Shown here: in pieces, positions 4,510 to 25,065 of the stretch
Position numbering within the stretch: the stretch's first letter is position 1
Layout: each line of letters starts with the position of its first letter
Virus record (IMG/VR): IMGVR_UViG_3300036985_003590
Span: 1-38,629 of that record
Length of the DNA: 38,629 bases
Strand: one strand, 5' to 3'
Origin: a virus
Translations under genes and position numbers: made by a program
The notes under the pieces: model-generated
Told to the model about the DNA's origin: nothing
The model's input: the letters and a program-made list of their open reading frames with translations, nothing else
Database searches by the model: none

Positions 4510-4514
4510 AAAAC

Positions 4515-4565
4515 AGCGGCTACCCGGCGCAGGGGAAAAGTGATTTTCCTGAATCACCTGCCGCT
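4515..4565 (+). promoter_or_regulatory. Branched hairpin between nuclease and initiator genes
   Basis: Three nested complementary blocks fold this 86-bp gap: AGCGGC (4515-4520) with GCCGCT (4560-4565), AGG with CCT, and GTGATT (4540-4545) with AATCAC (4552-4557) around a six-base loop. There is only a weak T/A run after it, so it is not a convincing intrinsic terminator. It may tune expression of the initiator, whose ribosome-binding site lies just beyond. Confidence 0.35.
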
Positions 4566-4594
4566 TAAAATTTCAGGACACAATAGGAAGTGAA

Positions 4595-7419: not shown

Positions 7420-8966
7420 CAAGAAACGAAAGCCATCAAAACTATAAACTGCTCTCAGACGCTTGCAAAACACCGGCAGAGAAGACCGCTCTTGCTCGTA
7501 AGCTCTGTCTGTCTGATTTATACTTCTTGTTAGTCTATGGCCTGCACCGGGACGATGCTGATCGTGATTGGATATACCAGCAAGTGCGGGAAGTGGAAGC
7601 GCAGCCGGACGGTATGCTTGACCTATGGGCGCGTGAGCACTACAAATCAACAATCATTACTTACGCTTTGACTATTCAAGACATTCTCCGCGATCCTGAA
7701 GTTACAGTAGGGATTTTCTCACATACTAGACCCATTGCCAAAGGCTTTTTACGTCAGATCAAGCGGGAGTTTGAAGGCAACAAGACGCTTTACAATCTCT
7801 TCCCGGACATACTCTGGGACAATCCGCAGAAAGAAGCGCCGAAATGGTCAGAAGACGATGGGATAATCATCAAGCGCACAGGCAACCCGAAGGAATCAAC
7901 AGTTGAAGCATGGGGATTGGTGGATGGGCAGCCGACAAGCAAACATTACAAACTAAGAGTCTATGACGATGTTGTGACCAAAGAGTCTGTCAGTTCCCCG
8001 GACATGATCCACAAGGTCAACGACTCATGGGAATTGTCGCTTAATCTTGGCGTGGATGGCGGGAAGAGCCGTTATGTTGGTACTCGTTACCACTACAACG
8101 ACACCTACCGTTTGATTATGGATCGTGGCGCGGCAACAGCGCGGATCAGGCCAGCGACAGACGATGGTACAGTCAAGGGCAAGCCTGTTCTTTTGCACCC
8201 GGACACATTGGCAGACAAGCGCCGGGACATGGGGCCTTATACTTTCGGTTGTCAGATGCTACTTGATCCAAAAGCGGATGAGGTTCAAGGGTTCAAAGAA
8301 TTATGGCTTAAGTTCTGGCCCTGCAATCACTTCACTAATTTCAATAAGATCATCCTGTGCGATCCGGCCAATGAGAAAAAGAAAGGCAATGATTATACCG
8401 TGTTCATGGTTATTGGCCTTGGCGGAGATGAGAACTTTTACATCATCGACATGATCAGAGATCGTCTGTCACTTACAGAGAGATCAAACGTCCTGTTCAA
8501 ACTGCATCGTGAGTTCCGGCCACAGTTTGTCGGCTATGAGAAGTATGGCAAAGACTCAGACATCCAACACTATGAATCAATTATGGACAGGGACAATTAC
8601 CGCTTTGGCATTACTCCCCTGGGCGGACGGTTGAGCAAGGAAGACCGGATCAGGACGCTTATCCCGCTGTTTGAGCAGGGGCGTATTTATATTCCAGACA
8701 GATTACTCAAAACAAATTACGAGAGGATCACAGAGGATTTGGTTCAGGCATTCATCAAAGAAGAATACCTGTCATTCCCGGTTGCTCCTCATGACGATAT
8801 GCTGGATTGTCTGGCGCGGATCACTGATCCCGATTGTTACAAACCTTTCCCGAATGATGCACCGGGCAGCAGGCCGCAGAATCAAGATACATTCGCAGAT
8901 ATATTCACAATAGCGGCAAACAGGAATCAACAACAGACAAACTATAATATTTTTGGAGGTAGATAA
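7416..8966 (+). CDS. terL: Terminase large subunit (516 aa)
   Basis: This is the packaging motor and headful or site-specific nuclease. The ATPase half has a Walker A-like loop AREHYKST near residue 71 and an acidic Walker B (RVYDDVV) near residue 180. The nuclease half has the RNase H-like acidic triad: LCDPANEKKKGNDYT near residue 313, VGYEKYG near 371 and PHDDMLD near 458. The length is normal for a T7-like or P22-like large terminase. The start overlaps the preceding stop (ATGA). It is followed by a small proline-rich gene and then the portal, in the usual order. Confidence 0.95.
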   Translation: MTRNESHQNYKLLSDACKTPAEKTALARKLCLSDLYFLLVYGLHRDDADRDWIYQQVREVEAQPDGMLDLWAREHYKSTIITYALTIQDILRDPEVTVGIFSHTRPIAKGFLRQIKREFEGNKTLYNLFPDILWDNPQKEAPKWSEDDGIIIKRTGNPKESTVEAWGLVDGQPTSKHYKLRVYDDVVTKESVSSPDMIHKVNDSWELSLNLGVDGGKSRYVGTRYHYNDTYRLIMDRGAATARIRPATDDGTVKGKPVLLHPDTLADKRRDMGPYTFGCQMLLDPKADEVQGFKELWLKFWPCNHFTNFNKIILCDPANEKKKGNDYTVFMVIGLGGDENFYIIDMIRDRLSLTERSNVLFKLHREFRPQFVGYEKYGKDSDIQHYESIMDRDNYRFGITPLGGRLSKEDRIRTLIPLFEQGRIYIPDRLLKTNYERITEDLVQAFIKEEYLSFPVAPHDDMLDCLARITDPDCYKPFPNDAPGSRPQNQDTFADIFTIAANRNQQQTNYNIFGGR

Positions 8967-14731: not shown

Positions 14732-15356
14732 TGTACCTATCTGGGAAAGTAACGGCATAAGAGGCAGGGGCGAAAAGGCTCCCGGTTGTGCCGGCAGCTT
14801 CAAAGGCACGGCGGTTGTGCTGGGATCAGCGCGGTGTATCTGGGACGATTGCGCCAAGATAGATTTCACCAAGGTTGAAGTAATTGCCATTAACAACATG
14901 ATTATGCACTGGAAAGACCGCGTCCATCATGGAGTGTCATTGCACCCGGAAGAACCGCCTCTTTGGAGGCAATTGCGCTGGACGAATCAATGCGAGGAAA
15001 GCCATGTCATAACACACAGTCATCGGCTGCCAGAGAACAACGATAACCTAGCGCCACAAGAGTTTAAGACGCGATGTGGTCTCGATTACCTTTGGGAGAT
15101 TGAGGGTGGCAGGGGTGGCAGTTCCGGCCTATTTGCGGCGATGATTGGCTTGGCCTTGGGTTATGACAAGATCATTCTCGCCGGTGTGCCCATAGACGGG
15201 ACAGGGCATTTCTTTGATCCTCCGGGGAAGGTGGTAAATCAGTTTCTAGGGACAAACATTAAAGAAGAATGGGACAACGCAAACCACAATTATTTTAAAG
15301 GTAGAGTTAAATCATTATCAGGTCGAACGAAAGAATGGTTGGGAGAACCGGAATGA
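14724..15356 (+). CDS. Rossmann-like protein, possible sugar-related (210 aa)
   Basis: The GTG start has AGGGG upstream and overlaps the methyltransferase stop. The beginning is GTAVVLGSARCIWDD, a nucleotide-binding-like turn, and a second characteristic part is SGLFAAMIGLALGYDKIILAG followed by PIDGTGHFFDP (written as its two parts). This pattern recurs in phage and surface-glycan genes and resembles DUF115/MptE-like proteins. The reaction is unknown. The gene runs into the DGR target gene by ATGA. Its place between a methyltransferase and a variable receptor-binding protein suggests an effect on the cell surface or the fibre. Confidence 0.5.
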   Translation: MTDVPIWESNGIRGRGEKAPGCAGSFKGTAVVLGSARCIWDDCAKIDFTKVEVIAINNMIMHWKDRVHHGVSLHPEEPPLWRQLRWTNQCEESHVITHSHRLPENNDNLAPQEFKTRCGLDYLWEIEGGRGGSSGLFAAMIGLALGYDKIILAGVPIDGTGHFFDPPGKVVNQFLGTNIKEEWDNANHNYFKGRVKSLSGRTKEWLGEPE

Positions 15357-16813
15357 GGAATAAAAGATACACAAATCTGGCAAGAAGAGAATTAACAATA
15401 ACATCAGCCGTTTCTAATGATCCGTATGATGCAGATACTTGGAATGGTGTGGATCATGTTGCCCCTTCTAAAAATGCTGTAAGAGATCAGTTTTTGGCAC
15501 TAGGTACACCAGATATTGCTTTTGCTTCCTCTGCTGAGGTCGCAGCCGGGACGGTGACAGATAAGGCAATTGCTCCCGACACTTTAAAAACAGCACTTGA
15601 CCTAAAGGCAAACATCACTCCCTCTTATTATGGCGTGTCGTGGGACGAATCCTTAGATACATACGCTAGAACAGGAGATAATGCAGGGTATCAAGTAGGG
15701 GCAACTCTTGGGAATACCCGTCTGCCTATACAGGCGAACATGAAAAGATGTTTAGTGGCAGATGATGGGACAGTCAACCACTATCTTGACCAAACAAATT
15801 CAGCATTATTAGCTGAGGGCGGTGCTTCAGATTTAACCGGCGCTGATGGTCAGGTAATGGTTCAGATACCGAAGTTTTGGCATAGACACACTTATGTTGG
15901 CACGGTGCATACATGGGAAATAAGCACAGTTGCAAGAGCCGGGTTTAGCGTTCATCAGGCATTTGTATCCGGGGCAACAGAATATGACTATATTTATATC
16001 GGAGCTTATGAGGCTATTCTCTGGGATGCCACAACGTCCACTTACATAGATTATGTATCCGGTGCGACCATTGACCATGATAATGACAAACTTAGCAGCG
16101 TAACAGCAAAAAGACCCGTCACAAACATAACGCGACATTTTGGCAGGGTAATGGCAGCTAAACGAGGCGCGGGCTGGTCACAAGAATTGTATGATTACCG
16201 GTCGGCAGTTCAACTGTTATACCTGACCGAGTATGCCAGCTTTAATTCACAGGCCAAGATCGGTGCAGGCATTTCCAATGTAACAGATTGGGCGGGTATT
16301 TCTTATTATCCATTTGCTCCGTCTGGTAACTCCAACTCAATAGGTAATGCCACTGGTAACACAGCTGGTGGGACGGGATACGCAGCAGAAGCCAGCAAGT
16401 ATATGTCTTACCGAGGGATAGAGAACTTTTACGGCCATTTATACAAATGGATGGATGGCTTAAACGTCTATGAAAGCGGCGGCAATCATCGTGCATGGGT
16501 GTGTAATGTCCTTGCTAATCTGGCTGACGATACAACAACCAACTATTCTGACACTGGCGTTAATTGCAAAGCGGATGATGGTTATCAAAATACATTAATC
16601 AACATAGACAGAGGTTTCTTACCGGCGGTGGGATCTGATGCAGATGCGGCAACTAAGATTACTGATTATTATTACCAAACTACGGGTTGGGCGGTTGCCC
16701 TTTCGGGGGGTTGGGCGGCTGATGGCGCGTATGGCGGTGTCTTCTATCTGAATGTCGGCAATGCGTCCTCCATTTCCCATGCGTATTTCGGCTCCCGCGT
16801 GTGTTTTAGATAA
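15353..16813 (+). CDS. DGR target: variable tail fibre / receptor-binding protein (486 aa)
   Basis: The preferred ATG overlaps the previous stop (ATGA) and has GGGAG upstream; an ATG at 15335 is possible. Residues 35-90 have a tail-fibre repeat (DIAFASSAEVAAGTVTDKAI followed by DTLKTAL). From about residue 250 the protein has the C-type-lectin/formylglycine-enzyme-like fold common in DGR proteins, with YRGIENFYGHLYKWMDG. The last 43 residues are the variable repeat, ending in NVGNASSISHAYFGSRVCFR. Many variable positions sit at former Asn codons. It should mediate host binding, with diversification of the receptor site by retrohoming. Confidence 0.93.
   Translation: MRNKRYTNLARRELTITSAVSNDPYDADTWNGVDHVAPSKNAVRDQFLALGTPDIAFASSAEVAAGTVTDKAIAPDTLKTALDLKANITPSYYGVSWDESLDTYARTGDNAGYQVGATLGNTRLPIQANMKRCLVADDGTVNHYLDQTNSALLAEGGASDLTGADGQVMVQIPKFWHRHTYVGTVHTWEISTVARAGFSVHQAFVSGATEYDYIYIGAYEAILWDATTSTYIDYVSGATIDHDNDKLSSVTAKRPVTNITRHFGRVMAAKRGAGWSQELYDYRSAVQLLYLTEYASFNSQAKIGAGISNVTDWAGISYYPFAPSGNSNSIGNATGNTAGGTGYAAEASKYMSYRGIENFYGHLYKWMDGLNVYESGGNHRAWVCNVLANLADDTTTNYSDTGVNCKADDGYQNTLINIDRGFLPAVGSDADAATKITDYYYQTTGWAVALSGGWAADGAYGGVFYLNVGNASSISHAYFGSRVCFR
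16684..16807 (+). repeat. DGR variable repeat (VR)
   Basis: This is a 124-bp stretch at the 3' end of the target gene that aligns without gaps to 16888-17011 (offset 204). Of 23 differences, 22 are at adenines of the other copy, and adenine is replaced by G, T or C. It ends two codons before the stop. The last bases (CTCCC-CGT-TGTTT) are the likely region for initiation of mutagenic homology. Confidence 0.95.
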
Positions 16814-16840
16814 CGAGAGAACGTAACACGGAGGCACAAA

Positions 16841-16849
16841 ATGGCATAA
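16841..16849 (+). other. Two-codon mini-ORF with full ribosome-binding site
   Basis: GGAGG (16830-16834) is followed at normal spacing by ATG GCA TAA. This is the gap where many DGRs carry the accessory avd gene. The mini-ORF could be a vestige of such a gene or a translated leader that affects the template RNA. There is no longer open frame here on either strand. Confidence 0.45.
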
Positions 16850-16887
16850 ATTAACATAAGTAGTACAAGGTTGCATGCTGGTGCGCT

Positions 16888-17011
16888 GAGTTAGGCGGTT
16901 GCCCATTCAGGGGGTTATGCGAATAATGGCACGAATGACAGTGTCTTCTATCTGAATGTCAACAATGCGTCCTCCAATTCCAATGCGAATATCAGCTCCC
17001 ACGTATGTTTA
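16888..17011 (+). repeat. DGR template repeat (TR)
   Basis: This is the invariant donor copy, in the gap between the target gene and the reverse transcriptase. It has 32 adenines, of which 22 differ in the VR. Read in the VR frame it would give many Asn codons (AAT/AAC), the usual design that gives broad variation at mutated adenines. The third codon in that frame is TAG (16892-16894), aligned with TGG in the VR. One non-adenine difference is present (16918, T in TR against G in VR). Confidence 0.95.
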
Positions 17012-17060
17012 TTTAGTAAGGCTCTAAAGTATGTGACCGCACCTCTTGGTGAAAAATAAA

Positions 17061-17105
17061 GACTGTCTCATTATGTGCTGGTAGGGAAACCGAAAGCTCA
17101 GAGAC
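17061..17105 (+). ncRNA. TR-RT spacer RNA element (putative)
   Basis: The 118 bases between TR and RT contain a GTCTC/GAGAC inverted repeat (17064-17068 and 17101-17105) enclosing a purine-rich loop. In BPP-1, the RNA downstream of TR is needed for cDNA priming. By analogy this spacer should be part of the template RNA. The fold here is weak and is given by eye only. Confidence 0.35.
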
Positions 17106-17129
17106 GAAAATAAACACAAAAGGAACAGA

Positions 17130-18188
17130 ATGAAACGGTACGGTAATTTATACGAGAAGATTTACGACATCGAGAATATTCGACTTGCCCATCATAACGC
17201 CCGGAAAGGTAAAAAACATTATGATGGTGTAGGCATTGTTGATGCTAATCCTGAATTTTACTTTGAGCAAATCCATGAGATGTTGAAGAACAAGACGTTT
17301 AAAAATGCTCCGTATCATGTCTTTAAAAGAAAATTCGGCACTAAAGAACGTGAAATATTCAAGCTACCTTATTTCCCGGATAGAATCATCCATCATTGTA
17401 TCATGCAGATTATGGAGCCTATCTGGAAAAAGTCATTGATACGGGACACCTATTCATCAATTAAAGGCAGAGGCTTGCATGATGGCGTAAAGAGGGTAAA
17501 GCAGGCGCTAAAAGATAAAGAAGGCACTAAATATTGTCTGAAATTAGACATCAAAAAGTTTTACCCGTCTGTCGATCATGATATTTTAAAGCAGATAATC
17601 AGGAAAAAGATTAAATGCCCGGATACGCTTTGGCTTCTGGATGAAATAATAGACTCCACACCCGGTATTCCCATTGGCAATTATCTGTCTCAATACTTCG
17701 GAAATATATATCTGTCAGGGCTTGATCATTTTATAAAAGAAACCTTACGAGTTAAATATCACTTTAGGTATTGTGACGATCTGGTGTTATTTGCCGGAAC
17801 CAAAACAGCGCTACATGCCGCGATTAATTCCATAAAAGAGTATTGCAGTTCATCCCTGTTGCTGTCCTTGAAAAGCAGCTATCAAATTTATCCTATTGAC
17901 ATTCGCGGGGTTGATTTCCTTGGGTACAGATTCTTCCACGGCTTTATATTATTACGCAAATCTATTGTCAGAAACTTCAAAATTAAAATAACCTCTATCC
18001 GTAAAGATTGGGGAAAAATATCCGCAACCAAGGTTATCAATGGATTGATGAGTTATTACGGCTGGATAAAATATGCTGATTGCAAGAGGCTTTTTGATAA
18101 ATATGTGGACACAGAAATAAAGAACATTGTTGGGGTATGTTGTGTCCAACTAAAACAAAATAACCCCTTGATGGAGGTTGCACCATGA
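17130..18188 (+). CDS. DGR reverse transcriptase (352 aa)
   Basis: It copies the template repeat with errors at adenines. Palm motifs are in order: FKLPYFPDRIIHHCIM (residues 73-90), LKLDIKKFYPS (about 137-147), IPIGNYLSQYFGN (about 179-191, the DGR-type motif 4 with SQ), YCDDLVLF (213-220, the catalytic Asp pair) and VDFLGYRFF (about 262-270). The length is usual for DGR RTs, and there is no maturase or endonuclease domain. AAGGA precedes the ATG. Its stop overlaps the next gene's ATG (ATGA), so it is co-translated with two small downstream genes. Confidence 0.96.
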   Translation: MKRYGNLYEKIYDIENIRLAHHNARKGKKHYDGVGIVDANPEFYFEQIHEMLKNKTFKNAPYHVFKRKFGTKEREIFKLPYFPDRIIHHCIMQIMEPIWKKSLIRDTYSSIKGRGLHDGVKRVKQALKDKEGTKYCLKLDIKKFYPSVDHDILKQIIRKKIKCPDTLWLLDEIIDSTPGIPIGNYLSQYFGNIYLSGLDHFIKETLRVKYHFRYCDDLVLFAGTKTALHAAINSIKEYCSSSLLLSLKSSYQIYPIDIRGVDFLGYRFFHGFILLRKSIVRNFKIKITSIRKDWGKISATKVINGLMSYYGWIKYADCKRLFDKYVDTEIKNIVGVCCVQLKQNNPLMEVAP

Positions 18189-18574
18189 AATCAAACTCAG
18201 ACTCTATACCTCTAACCACAGTTAAATCTAATGGTTTAACCCAAGTTAGATATGATGCTATCGAAGTAACCAGAGAAAACCCCGATGGTAGCACAAAGAC
18301 AAGTTACGATTTTTCTTATGTGGAGATTGAAGGTGAACTGACAAGAAGCAAAATAATTAACGCTATTATCGCTGAGGTCCATACCAAAGATGCAGAACTG
18401 GCACTGATAAACAACGAACTTGCCACTATTAAATCTATGTTTGAGAGTAAAGATGTAGAATTAACTCCCACAAATAGAGAGATTGTTGGCACAAAGATAG
18501 AACCATACAGCGATTATCAGTTGTTAAGGGCGCACGCTAAAGCAATTGCTGACGTTGTGCTGGAATCAATTTAA
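18185..18574 (+). CDS. DGR-linked small protein 1 (129 aa)
   Basis: The ATG overlaps the RT stop and the gene's own stop overlaps the next ATG (TAATG), so three genes are translated in series. The first 55 residues look beta-rich (TQVRYDAIEVT and SYDFSYVEIEG). The rest is helical, with SKIINAIIAEVHTKDAELAL and a final YQLLRAHAKAIADVVLESI. It does not match the four-helix Avd accessory protein in length pattern or composition. The family is not recognised. Coupling suggests a DGR-related role, but a tail-fibre chaperone or small virion protein cannot be excluded. Confidence 0.6.
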   Translation: MKSNSDSIPLTTVKSNGLTQVRYDAIEVTRENPDGSTKTSYDFSYVEIEGELTRSKIINAIIAEVHTKDAELALINNELATIKSMFESKDVELTPTNREIVGTKIEPYSDYQLLRAHAKAIADVVLESI

Positions 18575-24621: not shown

Positions 24622-25065
24622 ATGGCTGGAATATCACTAGCAAACTTAGATTTAGGAACTGTTCTTACAGGCGCGGGAACTCTGTTGAAGGACATCCGCA
24701 CAGCGATAACCGGGAAGGAACCTTTAAGCGCTAATAAGGCGGCAGAGATCGCCCTGGAAGCAGAGAAAATCGAAGCGGTAATAGAAACGGCACGGGTTTC
24801 TGTTATGGTAGCCGAGGCACAATCACAGGATAAATGGACATCCAGAGCAAGACCGGCTTTTCTTTATGTGATGTATATTATGATTTTAACATCTATCCCA
24901 ATGGGGATAATCTACGCTGTCAATCCCGTAGTTGCGGCAAATCTTACCAGTGGAGTAAAGGCATGGTTACTCGTTATCCCTGAAAGTATGTGGGCATTAA
25001 TGGGAGCTGGTTATCTTGGATATGTAGGCGCGAGGAGCTACGATAAAAAGCAGGGAGTTATTTAA
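24622..25065 (+). CDS. Holin, 3-TM family (147 aa)
   Basis: The C-terminal half has two clear hydrophobic stretches: LYVMYIMILTSIPMGIIYAV at about residues 83-102 and AWLLVIPESMWALMGAGYLG at about 114-133. The pattern DKWTSRARPAFLYV before the first is typical of the three-TM holin family seen with gene-transfer release. The N-terminal part is helical (EIALEAEKIEAVIETARVSV), with the first weak hydrophobic part. It would make lethal membrane lesions at the end of the cycle. It directly follows the DUF5675 gene, making a lysis pair. Confidence 0.8.
   Translation: MAGISLANLDLGTVLTGAGTLLKDIRTAITGKEPLSANKAAEIALEAEKIEAVIETARVSVMVAEAQSQDKWTSRARPAFLYVMYIMILTSIPMGIIYAVNPVVAANLTSGVKAWLLVIPESMWALMGAGYLGYVGARSYDKKQGVI

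Follow-up and report, generated by a model that had tools for sequence, protein, structure and literature searches.

How a diversity-generating retroelement (DGR) could work without the accessory protein Avd, and what lies between its template repeat (TR) and its reverse transcriptase (RT) gene, are questions raised by a stretch of viral DNA from IMG/VR, record IMGVR_UViG_3300036985_003590, positions 1 to 38,629 (38,629 nucleotides; hereafter, the window). DGRs are powerful natural protein diversifiers, and their biochemistry has mostly been done on the Bordetella phage BPP-1. Positions 15335-18188 of the window very probably hold an avd-less DGR, complete and recently active, which diversifies a phage tail protein at its lectin-like C-terminal tip. 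For the region between TR and RT, we lean, with slightly better than even confidence, towards the following reading: the Rfam family RT-17 would form the 3' half of a template RNA conserved among DGRs, with the architecture P0-[TR]-P1-P4; this RNA would occur in avd-less DGRs from bacteria and from viruses of bacteria and archaea, and would be homologous to the BPP-1 spacer. Helix P0 would loop the TR and limit the cDNA, helices P1-P4 would bind the RT without Avd, and the unit of TR and RNA could lack an RT gene of its own and be served in trans. The protein-coding and repeat parts of the element are as follows, VR being the variable repeat.

15335-16813, plus strand: target gene, a tail protein of 492 residues (phrog_5302, E 1.1e-89)
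16684-16807, plus strand: VR, with a mutagenised core at about 16694-16789
16888-17011, plus strand: TR, with an in-frame TAG at 16892-16894
17130-18188, plus strand: DGR RT of 352 residues, with IGNYLSQ and YCDD motifs

The VR and TR align without gaps over 124 bases at an offset of 204. They differ at 23 positions, 22 of which are TR adenines (A>G 14, A>T 6, A>C 2), the remaining change being T16918>G; 22 of the 32 adenines in the TR are changed. An earlier note on this DNA had given the same counts, which were reproduced, and had described a complete DGR with target, VR, TR and RT in that order on one strand. Both hold, the complete DGR being borne out by the VR/TR pair, the DGR-type RT and the TaqVP-like target. 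Elsewhere in the window, the best gapless match to the TR reached 55/121, as compared with 100/121 for the VR, which stops 6 bases short of the target open reading frame's end. Thus, the locus carries an adenine-biased TR/VR pair, a VR at the 3' end of a lectin-fold target, an RT with the DGR motif and blocks resembling the initiation of mutagenic homing elements (IMH in the VR, IMH* in the TR). What the earlier account, right in these parts, overlooked is a conserved RNA between the TR and the RT. A match to RT-17 fills most of this spacer, and the same place is matched in relatives. The predicted structure consists of the following parts.

16869-16879, plus strand: 5' strand of P0, GGUUGCAUGCU, the pairing segment in the upstream flank of the TR
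17028-17038, plus strand: 3' strand of P0, AGUAUGUGACC, in the spacer just before P1
17035-17121, plus strand: Rfam RT-17 RNA (RF03020), 42.7 bits against a curated cut-off of 40.4
17040-17051, plus strand: helix P1, 17040-17043 with 17048-17051
17065-17069 with 17101-17105, plus strand: helix P2, from covariation
17074-17078 with 17096-17100, plus strand: helix P3, with a U-U mismatch inside
Within 17065-17105, plus strand: GGUA/GAA internal loop, followed by P4 (17084-17085 with 17090-17091)

Across 27 aligned spacers, each of 10 pairs showed compensatory changes, and the pair counts exceeded those of the shuffled and of all slid versions. A covariance model, R1, was built from 20 seeds. It matched directly upstream of the RT in 34/35 viral RT loci and in 61/80 genome RT loci (E<=0.01), with weaker matches in place beyond that cut-off. 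Strong matches included crAssphage LMMB, cr6_1, Perkons and LBR48, and weak ones included Versailles, vir215, vir525 and the archaeal virus ANMV-1; the spacer fold occupies the same place in viruses and in bacteria of many phyla. Scans of 39 whole genomes gave 39 matches at E<=0.001, of which 36 were accompanied by a DGR RT, including loci outside the starting RT set (e.g., L241). The Rfam model of RT-17, by comparison, is without P2 and P0 and detects only part of the clade found by R1. The most likely role of the spacer RNA is to bind the RT as part of the template RNA. In the literature searched, whose coverage of key papers is incomplete, no role was stated for RT-17, and within that same coverage the assignment of this RNA to the DGR template may be new.

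The spacer is tied to the TR by P0, in which the bases before P1 pair with those directly upstream of the TR and thereby enclose it. P0 is mostly 8-15 pairs long, and its sequence differs between loci. The native score was 21.0, against 13.6 (standard deviation 0.29) for permuted partners, and none of 10,000 permutations reached the native value; negative controls with the VR flank, the RT body and the reversed flank scored 12.7-14.4. In the window, P0 is also present in the unconstrained fold of the whole RNA. Base pairing between the spacer and the 3' block of the TR was considered as well; it was weak (8/5,000 permutations reached its score) and was dropped in favor of P0 with the 5' flank. 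Judged by covariation, which is strong, the predicted five-helix fold of P0 and P1-P4 extends RT-17.

The RNA is also found apart from RT genes. The genomes of L079, L076 and L095 contain the RNA together with a TR and a P0 of 14-15 pairs but with no DGR RT beside them, at L242:5771-5972 and also in L231, L243 and L244; these three bacterial genomes hold an RT-bearing DGR elsewhere. The L242 cassette is accompanied by two VRs, at L242:6035-6155 and 7602-7722, in two short target genes. Over the stretch counted, these differ from the TR at 17 and 21 adenines, respectively, and at two other bases each. The RNA therefore goes with the TR and not with the RT gene, and the RT-less units are candidates for templates used in trans. 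A search for the P0-P4 RNA can thus reveal template cassettes that RT-based surveys miss.

Not all adenine changes between VR and TR reflect mutagenesis. The VR and TR each end in a fixed block.

16788-16807, plus strand: fixed 3' block of the VR (IMH-like), identical in three otherwise differing VRs, with clade-wide fixed bases
16992-17011, plus strand: fixed 3' block of the TR (IMH*-like), apparently uncopied into the VR

TR adenines 16994, 17001, 17005 and 17011 correspond to G, G, G and T in 3/3 closely related VRs, those of the window and of the viral contigs L002 and L003, which read GGCTCCCGCGTGTGTTTT in the final block, as compared with AGCTCCCACGTATGTTTA in the TRs. Across the clade, the VR base at the first adenine of the 3' block is G in 43/43 distinct loci and at the second in 32/33, and adenines only 3-6 bases upstream of these two are found both changed and unchanged. 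A sharp clade-wide boundary at the TR 3' block thus separates random from fixed adenine changes. Because they are fixed in related VRs and clade-wide, the four 3'-block differences count as IMH/IMH*-like and appear, from these alignments, to be untouched by homing. Positions 16889 and 16893 are likewise G in 3/3 VRs and are probably fixed differences too. Since some fixed changes are synonymous (GTA/GTG, CTA/CTT), protein selection alone is insufficient to explain the fixation. Position 16893 sits within the in-frame TAG of the TR; as a separate observation, the VR always has TGG where the TR has TAG (16888-16894), and the TRs of several relatives are alike at the equivalent tryptophan codon.

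The reading of all 22 adenine changes as mutagenesis was accordingly rejected, the 3'-block changes being fixed clade-wide. The earlier claim that the adenine bias is the signature of DGR mutagenesis stands for the core and fails at the ends, where at least four, and probably six, of the 22 are fixed differences. After removal of the six end positions, 16/26 core adenines are changed, together with one non-adenine change (T16918>G). Across the clade, 333/628 core TR adenines are changed, as compared with 13/1,307 other bases.

The clearest view of activity comes from L002 and L003, whose RTs are 92% identical to that of the window. Their TRs are identical to each other and match the window TR at 117/124 positions, and the VRs differ widely. 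Between the two contigs, there are 29 differences over 4,555 aligned bases, 28 of them inside the 124-base VR. Only one mismatch lies outside the VR, and there is none in the 1,379 bases that run from the end of the VR to the end of the RT. This pair is targeted diversification, seen in a sister lineage, and it is indirectly consistent with cDNA-based mutagenic homing. The earlier note's view that the system has been active in this lineage is accordingly supported by the VR/TR adenine bias, the related VRs, the RT placement and the sister contig pair. In the L002 VR (L002:75-198), a further pattern was noticed: all 10 non-adenine differences from its TR lie in L002, and three of them equal the base of the window lineage. 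Recombination, non-adenine errors of the RT and assembly noise at the contig end are candidate causes.

The RT was examined by profile, structure and phylogeny. It matches PF00078 and phrog_1423, and its IGNYLSQ fits the DGR motif [IVL]GxxxSQ. Its best solved match is PDB 8ub7 (E 1.6e-39); group II (1e-16) and retron-named RTs follow at a great distance. This entry, titled 'Reverse transcriptase', is presumably the BPP-1 DGR RT. A quick tree was built from 78 RTs, with two group II RTs as the outgroup and no retrons included. The window RT falls within an avd-less clade of 59 RTs (SH-aLRT 98), which includes crAssphage LMMB, Perkons and many bacterial DGR RTs, apart from Avd-type RTs; the split of the DGR RTs, the window's among them, from the group II outgroup has a support of 99. 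The DGR identity of the RT assumed in the earlier note is thus corroborated by both the tree and the best solved match, with respect to group II.

The same note had stated that the element differs from BPP-1 in its accessory genes, and this proved specific: the Avd model NF033474 had no match in the window or its 26 relatives (0/27 records). The model does match BPP-1, the positive control, and 27/28 BPP-1-type records. The gene 3' of the RT (18185-18574) gave no family match suggesting Avd. The window does not have the Avd beside the RT that marks BPP-1-type elements.

For the target, the ATG at 15353, which has a good ribosome-binding site, is a likelier start than 15335. Sequence searches found no solved relative. 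In an AlphaFold2 model, the N-terminal 94 residues form a low-confidence extension, and the C-terminal part (about 134-492; 360 residues) adopts a C-type-lectin variable-protein fold like that of TaqVP from Thermus aquaticus (PDB 5vf4; Z 25.2 over 268 residues, root-mean-square deviation 3.1, 18% identity). The model is less similar to Treponema variable protein 1 and to Mtd. A protein 47% identical to the target is encoded at 4001-5497 of L225, from the archaeal Methanosarcina virus MetMV, with no RT annotated in the stretch examined.

Other explanations of the locus were weighed against this evidence. That an Avd or another helper is supplied in trans by the host or another phage is unlikely. 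BPP-1 requires Avd (PMC12875486), and many bacterial genomes give weak matches of the four-helix-bundle type. Nevertheless, only 1/39 genomes with avd-less DGRs has an Avd match above the cut-off, on a contig other than that of the DGR, the viral records of the clade have none, and crAssphage LMMB was likewise reported without avd (PMC7290462). It is quite unlikely that the spacer RNA lies outside the template RNA and acts in cis as a leader controlling the translation or transcription of the RT. The RNA does directly precede the RT start in nearly all loci. Against a leader, P0 pairs with bases beyond the TR; in three genomes the RNA comes after a TR but before no RT gene, and there it is conserved at least as well as the RT-linked RNA (68.0 vs 54.2 bits in the same genome). 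Only a single VR is known for the window itself, and the element could have worked once and now be inactive as a remnant. This is very unlikely, given that the RT is open and complete with its catalytic motif, the core differences are nearly adenine-only, the RNA pairs of the window copy are intact and the sister lineage varies in the VR alone. Finally, matches below cut-off to group II, Drt3a and UG17 RTs (NCBIfam and PADLOC, neither of which listed a DGR model for this RT) might suggest a group II intron, retron or defence RT with an unrelated repeat pair. This is extremely improbable, as the NCBIfam matches are all far under their cut-offs (the best 106 vs 300 bits), the DGR motif and PDB 8ub7 are the best fit and the tree places the enzyme with DGR RTs.

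Several points weigh against the preferred reading of an active avd-less DGR with a P0-P4 template RNA. We infer the roles of P0 and P1-P4 by analogy, and a strongly diverged Avd might escape the model. Because alignments A5 and A6 were fitted to the structure or model, their pair counts lean towards the fold. Between L002 and L003, 10/28 VR differences lie off TR adenines, with 18/28 at them. Moreover, the near-identical pair belongs to a sister lineage, and the window copy's own activity is read from its sequence.

On the preferred reading, the template RNA would be a transcript from about 16865 to the RT start. P0 would join the 5' flank of the TR to the spacer and present the TR as a closed loop, and P1-P4 with the RGUA/GAA loop would form a handle gripped by the RT without Avd. 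Synthesis of cDNA would begin close to, or exactly at, the 5' boundary of the TR's fixed 3' block, and the bases downstream would therefore remain uncopied into the VR. The RT would run through the TR with errors at adenines and would probably be stopped by P0. Homing of the cDNA would then replace the VR core, and the fixed block would act as IMH/IMH*. In BPP-1, recruitment of the RT complex is a function of the spacer, one of whose internal adenines primes cDNA synthesis within IMH*, and termination depends on a motif located upstream of the TR (PMC12875486); the steps proposed for the window follow by analogy. The adenine of a TCAGC in the TR was suggested by eye as the homologue of the BPP-1 priming adenine, a suggestion set aside for insufficient support. 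Such a compact avd-less system, in which covarying helices set the bounds of the template RNA, leads to testable predictions of what the RT needs. It also offers a minimal two-part (RT and RNA) diversifier and gives a role to the RT-17 RNA family.

The host phage was previously called a T7-like podovirus. Its podovirus-type head-tail genes agree with this; its relatedness to BPP-1 (portal 30%, tail tube B 34-40% and a large virion protein of 1,133 residues 26%) and its integrase and O-like replication gene do not. The phage also encodes a Cas4/RecE-like exonuclease. A search for T7-type RNA polymerase gave no PF00940 match in the phage and matched nothing in its controls either. The phage is best called a BPP-1-related temperate podovirus with a different DGR lineage. 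It also carries an Rfam int-alpA RNA at 4513-4578 (37.4 bits), just 5' of the O-like replication gene, and a putative holin of the gene-transfer-agent 3TM type at 24622-25065 (PF11351, E 1.3e-19).

In comparison with the BPP-1 DGR (mtd/avd/TR/brt), the window RT is 32% identical and shares the IGxxxSQ motif. The BPP-1 target family differs from that of the window, yet Mtd shares the lectin fold. BPP-1 differs in having Avd and a longer spacer with two extra stems. Still, BPP-1-type spacers share with the window the order P1-P2-P3-RGUA/GAA-P4, and several BPP-1-type records have a complementary TR-flank segment like P0 (0/5,000 permutations reach the native mean), a signal driven in part by longer, further-upstream pairing in BPP-1 and a few others. 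Covariance models of avd-less and Avd-type spacers did not detect each other in either direction. Their homology, which seems likely from sequence and predicted structure, therefore rests on the shared order, loop motif and P0. An Avd-type DGR spacer at L210:3903-3989 carries a nearly verbatim copy of the avd-less core GAGUAGGGAAACCGAAAGC, with a weak model match (16.8 bits); L210 is possibly a link between the two spacer types.

Another close likeness to a described system is with crAssphage LMMB, whose DGR was reported as target-VR(IMH)-TR(IMH*)-RT without avd and called lineage 3 after Wu et al. (PMC7290462). The window has the same order and lack of avd, matching the lineage 3 architecture, and its RT shares a clade with that of crAssphage LMMB, at about 45% identity. 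The crAssphage also has the same spacer RNA (55.5 bits), which is not described in the text of PMC7290462, and an 18-pair P0. It differs in phage order and host group, and the targets of crAss-type phages are only about 24-27% identical to that of the window. The DGR itself is a new member of an already known kind of system.

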